A DNA stretch of 64,000 bases from an uncultured Alphaproteobacteria bacterium (GTDB lineage Bacteria > Pseudomonadota > Alphaproteobacteria > Rhodobacterales > Rhodobacteraceae), in contig CACBAO010000004.1 in the NCBI GenBank assembly GCA_902537235.1, positions 43,200 through 107,199 of the forward strand, written 5' to 3'. Positions within the stretch are counted from its first letter, which is position 1; each line of letters starts with the position of its first letter. Of this stretch, positions 15,621 to 22,670 are shown piece after piece. The position numbers and the translations under genes are program-made. Below the pieces are notes generated by a model. The model had not been told where the DNA came from, searched no databases, and saw nothing but the letters and a program-made list of their open reading frames with translations.

Positions 15621-16202
15621 CTAGCTGAGCGGAATACTATTGTCATTTTTCTTATTTTGATACTCTTCAGATAAACTATCGTATATTGACGATATACGTT
15701 CGGATATTTTCAATAAATAATCTCTACTTGCTGGCTCTAGCTTACTGATCAGCTCTTTTATTGCATAACATTTCCAAAAATAATTTTCTTTACTATATGC
15801 TCCATCCGACCTTCCAAATACTTCCGACAGAATGTCTAAATCATGAGCTATATTAAAAGCCTTTTTTGTGTCTCGGTAATTAAAAAAATAGTAAATAGTA
15901 TTAAACCCGGCCCAAGTAATAGCTGATAAACACATTGGGCAAGGCTCATGTGTTGATAAAAATATTAGATCATCTGTGGACCTATTTTTGTTTTCGGCAA
16001 AAAATTTGTTTAACGTAGATATTTCACCATGAAAGAGCGGGTTTTCAGTTTCTTGATTAATTCCAATAGTCATGGTTGCATAGTCATTTTTAGTTAGAAT
16101 AGCGCCTCCAAAAACTTTATTACCTTTCGCAACACCTTTTTTTGTTTCTGGAATTATTTCTTCTTCGATGACCCTCAAAGCTGTCTCTATGAAATTTTTC
16201 AT
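15621..16202 (-). CDS. Nucleoside/cytidine deaminase family protein
   Basis: HGE and PCPMCLSAITWAG zinc motifs; start overlaps pobA stop (ATGA-type coupling at 16199-16202). Confidence 0.85.
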   Translation of the reverse strand: MKNFIETALRVIEEEIIPETKKGVAKGNKVFGGAILTKNDYATMTIGINQETENPLFHGEISTLNKFFAENKNRSTDDLIFLSTHEPCPMCLSAITWAGFNTIYYFFNYRDTKKAFNIAHDLDILSEVFGRSDGAYSKENYFWKCYAIKELISKLEPASRDYLLKISERISSIYDSLSEEYQNKKNDNSIPLS

Positions 16203-17380
16203 AATGGTATGCCCACATAGTTTTCAGCAAAATGCGCTTGTGCAAAATTTGAGTGAGACAGATATTCTAATTCACTTAATTTTATTTTCCTGTCGAATTC
16301 TTTAGTCTCAGGAAACTCATGCATCAAAGTTGTCATCCACCAACTAAACCTCACCGCTTTCCATATTCTATTCAAAGCTGTTTTAGAGTAGTTAAATAAT
16401 TTCTTATCACCCTCTCCTCTATAAAAGGCTATAAGGCCCTCTGATAAATAATGCACATCTGACACTGCTAGGTTCAAACCCTTGGCTCCAGTTGGAGGCA
16501 CAATGTGAGCAGCATCTCCAACAAGAAAAAGATTGCCGTATTGAAGCGGCTCGACCACAAAACTCCTCAGCGGAGCAATAGATTTCTCAATTGAAGGGCC
16601 AATCCTTAAATTATCCTTTGAATTCTCGGGTAGTCGTTTAATTAATTCCTTCCAAAAATAATCATCCGAATAGTCCTCTGCTTTAGTATTCAAATCACAC
16701 TGAAGATAGTATCTTGAAAGATTATTATTCCTCATTGAGCATAAGGCAAATCCATCACTAGTGTTGGCATAAATCAACTCATCACTGACAGGAGGGGTTT
16801 CAGACAAAATACCTAACCAGCCGAATGGATATATTCTTTCATACTCTTTTCTTTGGTTTAGAGGGATTCGCTGCCTGCTAACGCCATGAAAGCCATCACA
16901 GCCTACAACAAAGTCTGATACAATTTTAATTTCTTTCCCAATTTCATCTTCAAATATTACCTCCGTCTTTGAACATTTTGGGTCGATTATATTTACGTTT
17001 TTTACCTGGAAAAAGACATTAGCTTCTCTCTCCTCTTGCTTTTGGTATAAATCTTTTGTTACTTCAGTTTGTCCAAAGATTGTCACACTCTTACCCACGG
17101 TCTCTGAAAAAGAAACTCTGAAACCTTTATTTTCTGATGAAAGGTAAGTACCTTCATGAACAAACCCATCAATATCTATTCTTTCACCTACACCAGCTCG
17201 CTTCAATATTTCTACGGTCCCACTCTCCAAAACACCAGCTCTTATTCTTGATAATACATGGCTTTTAGTGTGTTTTTCCAAAATGATGGTGTCAATACCC
17301 TCATTCATAAGCAACTGAGATAGTAATAGGCCCGATGGACCACCACCTATAATCGTTACTTGTGTTTTAAAATTTTCCAT
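16199..17380 (-). CDS. pobA: 4-hydroxybenzoate 3-monooxygenase
   Basis: GGGPSGLLLSQLL, RAGVLESGTVEILKRAGVGERI, FGQTEVTKDL, GDAAHIVPPTGAKGLNLAVSDV - PobA signature segments. Confidence 0.9.
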   Translation of the reverse strand: MENFKTQVTIIGGGPSGLLLSQLLMNEGIDTIILEKHTKSHVLSRIRAGVLESGTVEILKRAGVGERIDIDGFVHEGTYLSSENKGFRVSFSETVGKSVTIFGQTEVTKDLYQKQEEREANVFFQVKNVNIIDPKCSKTEVIFEDEIGKEIKIVSDFVVGCDGFHGVSRQRIPLNQRKEYERIYPFGWLGILSETPPVSDELIYANTSDGFALCSMRNNNLSRYYLQCDLNTKAEDYSDDYFWKELIKRLPENSKDNLRIGPSIEKSIAPLRSFVVEPLQYGNLFLVGDAAHIVPPTGAKGLNLAVSDVHYLSEGLIAFYRGEGDKKLFNYSKTALNRIWKAVRFSWWMTTLMHEFPETKEFDRKIKLSELEYLSHSNFAQAHFAENYVGIPL

Positions 17381-17394
17381 AAATTATAAAAAAG

Positions 17395-17420
17395 CGAAGG
17401 AGGCTGTTAAGCCTCCTTCG
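17395..17420 (-). terminator. Intrinsic terminator/attenuator hairpin immediately upstream of pobA
   Basis: Perfect 10-bp stem CGAAGGAGGC-ttaaca-GCCTCCTTCG on the minus strand, followed by CTTTTTT; only about 14 nt before the pobA ATG. Confidence 0.75.
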
Positions 17421-17438
17421 GTGACTGACGATTTAGTG

Positions 17439-17519
17439 TCAGACCCCTTTTTGCCCCTCGAAAATTTTTGTCGAGAGGGTATCTATGTCTGCCACCATTA
17501 TCGAATAATCACTAGACAT
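17439..17519 (-). CDS. Putative 26-aa small ORF / leader peptide upstream of the pobA terminator
   Basis: Minus strand AAAGGAGGTGGTCCA-ATG... encodes MSSDYSIMVADIDTLSTKIFEGQKGV*; extended consensus SD with 7-nt spacing and a downstream intrinsic terminator. Confidence 0.5.
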   Translation of the reverse strand: MSSDYSIMVADIDTLSTKIFEGQKGV

Positions 17520-17661
17520 TGGACCACCTCCTTTCAGTTGTTAAACTCTGATTAATAATGTAAGATACTTTGTAATCTTCTCAAACTATAAAATTTATAA
17601 TTGACTTAAAGATCAAAGATGACAGTTCAAGGAAACAGCATAGCGCATTGGATAAGTCGAC

Positions 17662-18093
17662 ATGTCTATTGAGAAAGCTCTGATTGACGCAGTTATGAAA
17701 GTCTACCAAAGCAAAGGTGTTGGGAAATTTTTTTCAATCAATTTTTTGGAGGAAACGGATGGCGAATTTGTTTTTGAGGTGTGCTTTCCTCTTGATTGTT
17801 TAAACCCTCAAGGAAATGTACAGGGTGGAATGATTACCAGCGTACTAGATGATTGCACTGCACTATGTGTTTTGTTTTCTACTAAAGGCAAAAGATTTCC
17901 TAACACAACGGACTTCCACACAACATTCCATCGGCCATTGTCTCTAGAGACTGCAACAATAAAGGCATCCATCTTGAAAATAGGCAAAAATATCGTTTCG
18001 GTAGAAGGTAAGATTTTTAAGGAAAAGCATAAATTAGTGGCTTCCTGTCTTCATACTGGGTTCCTTTTCGATACGCATGGAATGAAGAAATAG
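17662..18093 (+). CDS. PaaI-family hotdog thioesterase
   Basis: GNVQGGMITSVLDDCTA and TTDFHTTFHRPL motifs. Confidence 0.85.
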   Translation: MSIEKALIDAVMKVYQSKGVGKFFSINFLEETDGEFVFEVCFPLDCLNPQGNVQGGMITSVLDDCTALCVLFSTKGKRFPNTTDFHTTFHRPLSLETATIKASILKIGKNIVSVEGKIFKEKHKLVASCLHTGFLFDTHGMKK

Positions 18094-18104: not shown

Positions 18105-18443
18105 CTATTTGGGTAATGTTATATTTATATTTACGAGAACAACACCAATAACTATTAGAGCTAATCCAATCACAGACCAAAAATTGAGAGATTGATTGAA
18201 AGCAAAATAAGATACTAAGGCCAAAGTAAAAATTCCTAATCCACTCCAAGTAGCATACATTATAGCAATGGGGATAAAGTTCACAACGATTGACAAAAAG
18301 TAGAAGGAAACACCGTAGAGTAACACTAGAGCTATAGTAGCTTTTGCGTTCGTAAAATTTTGAGATGCGGGTAACAAAAGTGTACCACTCACCTCAAAGA
18401 CTATTGCAGCTAGAAGGCAGAGATATGCCGTAATTGGTTGCAT
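18105..18443 (-). CDS. SMR-family multidrug/quaternary ammonium efflux protein (EmrE-like)
   Basis: 112 aa; AIVFEVSGTLLLPASQNF and IPIAIMYATWSGLGIF motifs. Confidence 0.9.
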   Translation of the reverse strand: MQPITAYLCLLAAIVFEVSGTLLLPASQNFTNAKATIALVLLYGVSFYFLSIVVNFIPIAIMYATWSGLGIFTLALVSYFAFNQSLNFWSVIGLALIVIGVVLVNINITLPK

Positions 18444-19155: not shown

Positions 19156-20115
19156 TTGCTAACTTTAACGAAAATGAAAAGATCTATCAAAAATATTGTT
19201 CTTATAGCAGGTGGTGTAGGTGGTGCAAAATTAGCAGAAGGACTTAATTCTATAAAAGATATAGATCTTGCTATCATTGGCAACATTGCAGATGATGATG
19301 AGTTCCATGGGCTAAGGGTTTCTCCAGATATAGATACCTTAACGTATACACTTTCAGGAATGGTGAACCGAAAGCAAGGATGGGGAGTAAAAAATGACGA
19401 TTATAAGACGCTCTCAATGTTAAATCAATTAGGCGAAGAAACCTGGATGTCTTTAGGTGATCTCGACTTTGGTCTTCATATATATAGACAGCACAGACTT
19501 TTAAAAGATCATCGTCCGACAATTATTGCTAATGAGATCGCTAAAAAATTGGGTGTAACAGCAGATATAATCTTACCTACTGACGACAAGATTAGAACAG
19601 AGGTGCAAACCAAGTCGGGTTGGATATCATTTCAGGAATATTTTGTCAAAAAACGGTGTTCGCCGAAAATTATAAAACTAAAATACACCGGAATTAAATC
19701 AGCCAAAATCACCAAAGAGGCAGAAAAAGCACTCTTTAACGCTGAACTAATAATTATTGCTCCGTCAAATCCTTTAGTAAGTATAAAACCAATACTTGAA
19801 ATACCTGGGTTTAAATCGATAATTCAAAAAAATAATAAGAAGGTGATAGCAATAAGTCCGTTGATCCAAGGAAAGGCTTTAAAAGGTCCTGCATCAAAAA
19901 TGCTTAAACAATTAGGTTTCAAGCCAAATTCTTTTTCTTGTATGCAGTTCTATAAAGATATTTGCAAATCATTTATTCTCGATAGGTCCGATATAGGCTT
20001 AGAGAAACAATTTATTTCACTAAATCAAACACCTATATTTACCAACACTCTGATGACCTCTATAGGAGACAAGAGACGGCTGGCTAACTTCATAATCAAT
20101 CAACCTATTGATTGA
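19156..20115 (+). CDS. cofD: 2-phospho-L-lactate (or phosphoenolpyruvate) transferase, coenzyme F420 biosynthesis
   Basis: IVLIAGGVGGAKLAEGL...NIADDDEFHGLRVSPDIDTLTYTLSG...LGDLDFGLHIYR...IAPSNPLVSIKPIL...SPLIQGKALKGP; likely ATG at 19174. Confidence 0.93.
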   Translation: MLTLTKMKRSIKNIVLIAGGVGGAKLAEGLNSIKDIDLAIIGNIADDDEFHGLRVSPDIDTLTYTLSGMVNRKQGWGVKNDDYKTLSMLNQLGEETWMSLGDLDFGLHIYRQHRLLKDHRPTIIANEIAKKLGVTADIILPTDDKIRTEVQTKSGWISFQEYFVKKRCSPKIIKLKYTGIKSAKITKEAEKALFNAELIIIAPSNPLVSIKPILEIPGFKSIIQKNNKKVIAISPLIQGKALKGPASKMLKQLGFKPNSFSCMQFYKDICKSFILDRSDIGLEKQFISLNQTPIFTNTLMTSIGDKRRLANFIINQPID

Positions 20116-20152
20116 TCTTTTAAAAGACTTTAGAACTTTTTAAAAAAATTAA

Positions 20153-20172
20153 TTATAGATCGTGATCTATAA
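20153..20172. promoter_or_regulatory. Perfect 9+2+9 palindrome upstream of cofE (candidate operator)
   Basis: TTATAGATC-GT-GATCTATAA, 28 bp upstream of the cofE ATG; no T-tract, so unlikely to be a terminator. Confidence 0.5.
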
Positions 20173-20200
20173 CTAGTATTATCGCAGATTAAGGTAGCTA

Positions 20201-20989
20201 TTGAAGAAAATGTCAAATTCAACGTTAAATTTAAATGTAATTCCGCATATCCCTGACATTGATAACGGTGATGACATTAGTGACATTCTAATTTCTGCTC
20301 TCAACAAATCATCTATATGTCTTAAAGAATTTGACGTTATTTGTATAGCACATAAAATATTTTCAAAAGCTGAAGGATGTATAATAAATTTAAAAGAAGT
20401 TTCTCCCTCCAAAAAAGCAATCGAACTCGGAAAAAGCCTTAGCAAGGACCCAAGAAAAGTCGAAGTCGTATTACAAGAAAGTAATAATATTATTCGCTCT
20501 TTTAAAAGAGCGGAACAAAATGAAGGAACTCTCATTTGTCAGCATAAACTTGGATTTATCTGCGCTAATGCAGGGGTTGACGAGTCCAATGTTGCAGAGC
20601 AGGAAACTGTAGTAACCGTTCCAAAAAATCCTGACCTTAGTGTGCAAGTTTTAAGAGATAAACTAAAAAATTACTTTGACTTGGAGAATTTGGGGATAGT
20701 TATGAGTGATACCTTTGGAAGGCCATGGAGGATTGGACAGGTCAATGTCGCTATTGGTGTCGCAGGAATACCAGCAACAAAAAAAGAGCAGGGAACTACA
20801 GATGCTTGGGGAAATCAATTATACGTGACAGAACCAGCTTTTTGTGATGAAATAGCAGCATCTTCTGGGTTGCTTATGAGCAAAGCAGGGAAATGTCCTG
20901 CAATTTTATTGAGAGGGCTTAGCTGGAGTGGAAAGTACGGCTCTGCAAACGACATTCTAAGAAAACAAAATGAGGATATGTTTAGATGA
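20201..20989 (+). CDS. cofE: Coenzyme F420-0:L-glutamate ligase
   Basis: [45 protein letters not shown] and [14 protein letters not shown] motifs. Confidence 0.93.
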
Positions 20990-21654
20990 AATTATCAATT
21001 ATTGGAGGAACTGGGCCTCAGGGTAAAGGCCTTGCCCTTAGATTTGCTAAGGCAGGTTTTGAAGTTGCTTTGGGATCACGTGATGAATCCAGAGCTATCA
21101 AAGTTGCAGATAGTTTAACATCAAAAAACCAAAACCTCGTGGGGTCGATAACTGGGCTGTCGAATAGCGAAGCAATAGCATTCACGGACAAGTTTGTAAT
21201 ATTTTCAGTACCTTGGAGCGGTCACAACAATACACTTTCTGAAATCAAAGGGATGCTTGCGGATAAGGTACTTGTTGACATAGTAGTTCCATTGGAAGAC
21301 GGAAACCCGAGAAAAGTAGCTATGCCCCCTGAAGGCTCAGCTACAGAAGCAGCGCAAGCCATGTTAGGGCCTGACATACCAGTAGTTGGAGCCCTCCATA
21401 ATGTTTCCGCGAATACACTTAATCACCTAGAGAAAAAAATTAATTGTGATATCTTGGTATGTGGAAACAATTTGGATGCTAGGTTAGATACTATAGAGTT
21501 GTTAAAAAACTTAGAAGTCGAGGCTTACAATGCTGGTGATGCAACATCAGCGAGATGTTTAGAGGCTATAACACCTATATTGATTAGAATAAATATGTCT
21601 AAAGCGGTGCCTTTTTCACATGCTGGAATAAAAATTTGGCCACCAGAGGAATAA
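20986..21654 (+). CDS. npdG: NADPH:F420 oxidoreductase
   Basis: [33 protein letters not shown] Rossmann motif, [20 protein letters not shown] overlap with cofE. Confidence 0.9.
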
Positions 21655-22670
21655 AAAAGGAGGAAGATATGGAATTTGCAATTTGTTTTAAAGGGTTTGT
21701 TCAACCAGATCGAGCAAAAGCGCTGGTTAGATTGGCTGAAAGCGCTGGATTCACGTATTGCTGGTTCTACGACAGCCACATACTTTGGAGAGAAAGCTTT
21801 GCTCAAATGGCTATGTGTATGGAACATACAAAAAAAATGAGGTTTGGACCGTGTGTAACCAATCCCAACACAAGAGACTGGTCTTTAGCGGCATCAATGT
21901 TTGGCTCACTTGCTTTACAATCCAATGGACGATTTGATATTGGTGTTGGAAGAGGCGATAGCGCTGTCCGCGTAATGGGGAAAAAGCCTTCTAACCTAGC
22001 ACGAATGGAAGAATTTATTTTAAAAGTTAAGGCAATGGTTAAGGGAGATGAAGTCCAGTATGGTGATGTTCCCAACCCAATCCAATTCCCATGGGCAGAA
22101 GGATATGATTTACCCGTCTGGGTAGCTGCCTATGGACCAAAGGCTCTTACATCTGCTGGAAAAGTTGGAGATGGTCTGGTGCTTCAAATTGCTTCCCCAA
22201 CCGTTTGCAAATGGCTCAGAGATCAAGCGGTAAATGCAGGAGAAGAACACGGACGTGATATGTCAGACTACAAGGTAATGGTGGCCGCACCTGCTTACTT
22301 TGGAGACAGAGCAGAAAGTATTGAGAAAGTAAAGTGGTTTCCCGCTATGGTTGGAAATCACGTAGCTGACATAGTTGAGAAGTATGGTGAAGATAACAAA
22401 GACATTCCCAACAGCCTCACGGACTATATTAAAGATCGCCGCGGCTATGATTACTCTAAACATGGCCAGAGCGACAATCCCTATTTAGAATTTATCACAG
22501 ATGAAATAGTTGAAGAGTTTTGTGTTTTGGGAACCGCTGATCAACATGTAAAAAAACTTAAAACATTAAAAGACCTCGGAGTAACCCAATTCAATATTTA
22601 TCTGGATAGCGGAGACGAAGAGAGAATTATCGCAGAGTATGGAGAAAATGTTATACCAGCTTTTTCATAA
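21636..22670 (+). CDS. LLM-class F420-dependent oxidoreductase (5,10-methylene-H4MPT reductase-like)
   Basis: Luciferase-like fold signatures ([72 protein letters not shown]); true start likely ATG 21669 with an upstream AGGAGGAAG SD. Confidence 0.9.

Follow-up and report, generated by a model that had tools for sequence, protein, structure and literature searches.

A divergent relative of the CC2171 small RNA in front of pobA is a candidate ribosome-gated micro-mRNA

The Rfam family RF01867 (CC2171) is filed as a small RNA of Caulobacter, with its function not given. The RNA MH_s33 of Mesorhizobium huakuii has been annotated as RF01867 (PMC5596092), and Rfam 15 provides one additional covarying pair for the family (PMC11701678). 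Schrader et al. 2014 reported that two earlier predicted noncoding RNAs of Caulobacter turn out to be translated (PMC4117421). Our literature search returned passing mentions of CC2171 or RF01867 and no functional study of CC2171. Here we analyzed a minus-strand locus directly in front of pobA, within a 64,000-nucleotide stretch of alphaproteobacterial DNA that is referred to below as the window. An initial annotation had offered two readings of this locus, conditional termination of pobA transcription or an independent, highly translated small gene. When a 301-nt segment was searched with cmscan, the full RF01867 model (positions 1-159) aligned to an element at 17398-17543 (-) with 37.6 bits and E=1.1e-6, and a search of the element's own genome with the same model returned this element as its sole match (E=1.6e-6). 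At the gathering threshold Rfam gave no match in the window, and the family surfaced only in the E-value search. Since the score falls short of the 75-bit gathering score for RF01867, at about half of it, we call the element a divergent relative rather than a formal member of the family. The 5' GAAAGGAGGUG block, the NUG and the closing helix beside the terminator are nevertheless all present, as in RF01867, and the comparison indicates that the element is a diverged version of a gene for a small RNA that is widespread in alphaproteobacteria. The alphaproteobacterial placement rests on a match of RF01867 to Caulobacter among the controls, on the 16S tail and on the Mesorhizobium record.

The layout of the element is compact, and its features are given here in the order in which the minus strand would be transcribed. 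A candidate promoter, TTGAGA-16-TACATT (17557-17584; 9/12 in a consensus scan), is kept among congeners, though the number of scan matches in the region was no better than in shuffled sequence. In 28 of 30 genera of the window's family, a -35 box of the TTG type precedes the start codon by 58-80 nt, mostly at -63 to -66, against a background of 13%. Next come a CAAC motif at 17537-17540, close to where the transcript presumably begins and found ahead of the Shine-Dalgarno (SD) block in most relatives, and the SD block GAAAGGAGGTGGTCC itself (17521-17535). The micro-ORF, MSSDYSIMVADIDTLSTKIFEGQKGV, occupies 17439-17519 and comprises 26 codons plus a stop, with its ATG at 17519 and its TGA at 17441-17439. 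Within it lie the 5' strand of the closing helix P1 (GUGAUU, 17507-17512) and a hairpin of 8 pairs with a 9-nt loop and one U-G pair (17454-17479), which is the tip of a rod-like fold. The 3' strand of P1 (AGUCAC, 17421-17426) abuts an intrinsic terminator (17388-17420), whose stem (17420-17395) has 11 pairs and a 4-nt loop and is followed by a C and then T6 (17393-17388). The pobA ATG at 17380 lies 7 nt beyond the last T. Outside the element, pobA (16199-17380, -) encodes 4-hydroxybenzoate 3-monooxygenase (TIGR02360, 579.6 bits against a cut-off of 538.7). The initial annotation had thus described the ORF and its hairpin correctly, as well as the lack of an SD between the terminator and pobA; it had also recognized the terminator and its T6 close to the gene, with a stem one pair too short (10 bp) and a distance that was too long (about a dozen nt). 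The locus has promoter-like and terminator sequences, and a discrete small transcript is its putative product. Upstream of it, the plus strand encodes a hotdog thioesterase (17662-18093) and the minus strand an SMR-type efflux protein (18105-18443). Farther away, at 19156-22670, the window holds a row of F420 genes, namely a cofD-like gene scoring slightly under its NCBIfam cut-off, cofE, npdG and an LLM-class F420-dependent oxidoreductase. F420 genes are unusual in bacteria of this kind.

A near-perfect complement of the anti-SD had been noted at this locus, and it proved to be longer than described. The SD block (17535-17521) pairs over 15 nt, with one G-U, with the 16S tail GGAUCACCUCCUUUC, as taken from two genomes of other genera of the family; none of the 22 genomes (MAGs) of the window's own genus gave a match to the 16S tail. 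The calculated duplex energy is -27.4 kcal/mol, as compared with -10.1 kcal/mol for AAGGAGG alone. The 13-nt core of the block, AAGGAGGTGRTCC, has a single exact match in the entire 1.92-Mb genome, and both the ORF and the terminator recur in 12 congeners; with the fold statistics given below (z=-4.8), these results place the arrangement beyond chance. All RF01867-type elements carry GAAAGGAGGTGRTC(C), a 15-nt complement of the mature 16S tail, after which come a micro-ORF with AUG or GUG, a helix of long range and the terminator; the 15-bp duplex amounts to -27 to -28 kcal/mol. An SD of this strength might hinder the speed of initiation instead of helping it.

We then determined how widely such elements occur. 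At E<=0.01, the RF01867 model matched in 130 of 151 genera of the window's family and in 105 of 388 genomes of the class. In the phylum sample it matched in 72 of 299 genomes, where all of the matches listed belong to the window's class; these counts were made with strict filters and differing E-value limits, and lone weak matches among them may be due to chance. Almost every genus of one large family carries the RNA, as do no fewer than a quarter of the class genomes sampled, mostly under the annotation cut-off. Since none of the 130 matching genera of the family reaches the Rfam cut-off of 75 bits, threshold annotation would overlook every one of them. Matching genomes mostly have one copy, and some members of the class have two or three matches; one exceptional genome (G454) has two strong copies, of 62.7 and 59.6 bits, on contigs C23 and C24. 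Searches with patterns that combine the SD and the start codon revealed one copy each across many other families of the class; in two of these scans a reversed control pattern was included, and it had zero matches. Most of these loci have a short ORF, with differing peptides, and the E-value search of Rfam identified them as relatives of RF01867. A scan of viral contigs with the pattern yielded 106 raw matching stretches.

The 26-amino-acid ORF is conserved in 13 of the 22 genomes of the genus, the window's own included. For a broader test of the reading frame, we used 40 independent elements, defined as clusters at 70% identity, and counted the in-frame run from the conserved NUG; the loci had been picked by SD/start patterns or by the Rfam model, never by ORF length. 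The run reaches 18 codons or more in all 40 clusters and falls within 18-36 codons in 39 of them, as opposed to 30±7% in shuffled sequences. About half of the readings in the other two frames are shorter than 15 codons. A second set consisted of the best 30 RF01867 matches of the family, one from each of 30 genera (L234-L263). Every one of these has a GTG start and exactly 18 codons, and the ORFs end in TAG (13), TGA (13) or TAA (4) and never in TGG. This absence of TGG was reproduced in 0 of 20,000 permutations, even though the two variable stop positions are both 43% G; as the genera are related, they do not represent 30 independent events. The use of three stop codon types without a single loss points to selection on the stop. 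We conclude from these patterns that the frame and length of the ORF are evidently under selection. The micro-ORF bears marks of translation, and we infer that it is in fact translated.

The RNA from the window is predicted to form the terminator and a rod that extends from P1 up to the hairpin inside the ORF, at -56 kcal/mol (z=-4.8). When P1 partners were permuted across 32 clusters, each strand paired better with its own partner (z=-6.65, p<=5e-5). The adjoining ORF segment at +21..+37 showed this preference too (z=-4.0). A rod that continues would be expected to give such a result, and the segment is thereby a partly non-null control for the P1 test; the segment beyond it showed no such preference (z=0.65). 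P1 therefore covaries. Among sequences of the genus, pairing is seen in 95.4% of cells, versus about 38-45% in slid controls, and only 3 pairs change on both sides, a thin covariation that results from sequences that are too similar. Internal complementarity to the SD block exceeds that of shuffles (z from -6.3 to -7.3), and in the 40 clusters z against dinucleotide shuffles is -6.5 and -7.3. In the alignment of 30 family genera, RNAalifold pairs the SD, as GGAGGUG, with an internal CACCUCC shortly ahead of the terminator and places the start codon in a hairpin of its own. Each SD:CACCUCC pair is kept in 28-30 of the 30 genera; the SD side is invariant, and the other side shifts almost solely between pairing letters. 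This pairing is absent in the window's genus, where the motif has been replaced. The initial annotation had proposed mutually exclusive structures in which the SD pairs with the 3' arm of the terminator. That arm is indeed the only strong anti-SD in the window and such pairing can form, yet it costs 12 kcal/mol relative to the fold with the terminator. Sequestration of the SD by an internal anti-SD thus appears clear in sister genera, at another position, and faint in the window. In Caulobacter-like members (L185-L199), recurring codons TGGATCCTCGCCTC resemble the 16S tail, which suggests an anti-SD mimic inside the ORF.

The neighborhood of the element bears on what it might control. Were it a genus-specific attenuator, leader translation or SD pairing would control read-through of the terminator into pobA. 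Consistent with this idea, pobA has neither an SD nor an obvious promoter of its own, and the only strong promoter-like match between the terminator and the gene would start transcription inside pobA. Moreover, in all 15 cases in the genus where the 5' end of pobA is intact, the element sits immediately before it, and the gene upstream differs in at least one of them. G009 and G021 (L228 and L229), which diverge most among the congeners, keep the terminator stem and carry A-rich sequence in place of the T-run, such that read-through into pobA may be constitutive there; in the predicted minimum-energy fold of G009, unlike in those of the window and G021, the SD is bound to the 3' arm of the terminator. 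However, pobA is the downstream neighbor in the window's genus only, and outside this genus the element is not tied to it. Across the class the element stands beside unrelated or opposite-strand genes (27 of 40 downstream genes are co-oriented by a rough ORF call), and no single downstream gene or pathway is conserved among pobA in its genus, arfB in the family and the varied neighbors elsewhere. Neither codons nor a ligand site relevant to 4-hydroxybenzoate are apparent, and the energy cost of the SD-paired fold also speaks against a switch. Attenuation was accordingly rejected as a general explanation, and as a genus-specific one we consider it unlikely. We regard an origin as a leader of arfB, with conditional termination in the family and later stranding before pobA, as similarly improbable. 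Flanks located by tblastn place yhhQ (queuosine precursor transporter) upstream and co-oriented in 28 of 30 family genera, arfB (ribosome rescue) downstream, co-oriented and within 500 nt in 25, and both in 24. A sensor of ribosome status ahead of a ribosome-rescue gene is plausible, and the order yhhQ-element-arfB may mean that the RNA and ribosome rescue are functionally linked. On the other hand, gene order alone may reflect shared ancestry, a terminator-like hairpin separates the element from arfB, and outside the family no arfB was found next to the elements that were inspected. Among 22 incomplete genomes of the window's genus, arfB was detected in just one, where the match is partial and sits on a different contig from the element; the RNA, whose flanks have changed in this genus, appears to have outlived this neighbor. 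In one family, the SRP RNA gene (RF00169) follows shortly after the element (L178:1692-1788), and in a relative a dnaX-like gene is found downstream.

Two other explanations concern the product of the element itself. If it were an independent gene for a functional micro-peptide, the very strong SD, the conserved start and stop, and the family consensus (M/V)SRxxLE(R/K)GVGT would be accounted for. The pN/pS ratio is nonetheless 1.13 in the window's genus and 1.07 in the Caulobacter-like clade; in the family it is 0.83 in the ORF frame versus 0.71 and 0.83 in the other frames, with the caveat that it drops to 0.55 over codons 6-14, and the peptides are wholly different between families. Selection on frame and stop combined with a pN/pS near 1 implies that frame and length matter and that the amino-acid sequence is apparently not selected. 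The micro-peptide reading is therefore very improbable, and a conserved micro-protein gene was rejected. A ratio near 1, which the initial annotation had named as evidence against its readings, weighs against a peptide function and not against translation. A conventional small RNA that base-pairs with mRNAs through the SD block or the anti-SD motif, and whose ORF is incidental, would be in keeping with the Rfam annotation as sRNA, the purine-rich 5' end and the conserved CCUCC motifs. We consider it rather improbable, since ORF length and the stop codon are under selection and the complementarity extends to all 15 nt of the mature 16S tail.

Our preferred reading, to which we assign a probability of roughly 60% on computational grounds, is that of an autonomous micro-mRNA or dual-character sRNA gated by the ribosome, with control of pobA at most a local co-option. 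Between the two readings offered initially, that of an independent small gene comes closer than the pobA attenuator and is partly supported: the autonomy of the gene and the marks of translation hold up, and the abundant, conserved micro-protein does not. In the mechanism that we propose, the 16S-tail complement at the 5' end is followed by a start codon, a frame of 18-36 codons and a stop, and the reading frame folds as a rod closed by P1 against the intrinsic terminator. Subunits (30S) with a free mature 16S tail would capture the RNA through the SD duplex of about 15 bp, and translation of the captured RNA would open the rod. Without 30S capture the rod would stay closed and, in sister genera, the SD would be held by CACCUCC, the internal mimic of the 16S tail. 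The selected property would be the translation event and its length rather than the peptide. Candidate physiological outputs include 30S titration, RNA stability and release of the anti-SD. More tentatively, CC2171-type RNAs in general could be ribosome-gated riboregulators that directly sense free 30S subunits in alphaproteobacteria. It is conceivable, with considerable doubt, that the 16S-tail complement and, in most members, the internal tail mimic allow free mature 30S subunits to open the RNA. Equally speculative is a dependence of the output on translating a micro-ORF constrained in length and free in sequence. The marks of translation, the maximal complementarity to the 16S tail and the tail mimic would thus turn an orphan sRNA into a testable hypothesis of sensing or buffering ribosome supply. 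If true, alphaproteobacteria would possess a direct sensor of free 30S subunits and a class of ribosome-gated riboregulators.

Among known systems, RF01867 CC2171 of Caulobacter and Mesorhizobium huakuii (PMC5596092) is the closest, with a full-length model match, mostly a single copy, the same 5' CAAC-GAAAGGAGGUGAUCC-NUG start and a closing helix adjoining the terminator; the window element differs in its score, in its 26-codon ORF with an unrelated peptide, and in having GGTGGTCC in place of GGTGATCC. Leader-peptide attenuators such as trpL of Sinorhizobium (PMC7298713) likewise have a short, SD-led ORF and then a terminator upstream of a gene. In contrast to them, the element has no apparent regulatory codons and no conserved cognate downstream gene, and its terminator is not an alternative to the rod helices. 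Pos19 of Rhodobacter sphaeroides is also an alphaproteobacterial small RNA reported to be coding, and is distinguished as a stress-induced, 219-nt RNA of the RpoE regulon (PMC5036791). The extended Shine-Dalgarno mRNAs of Staphylococcus aureus (PMC13009471) share initiation with SD pairing past the core motif. There the phenomenon is genome-wide, whereas here it concerns one small RNA gene, which carries a complement of the whole mature 16S tail and, in its relatives, an internal mimic of that tail.
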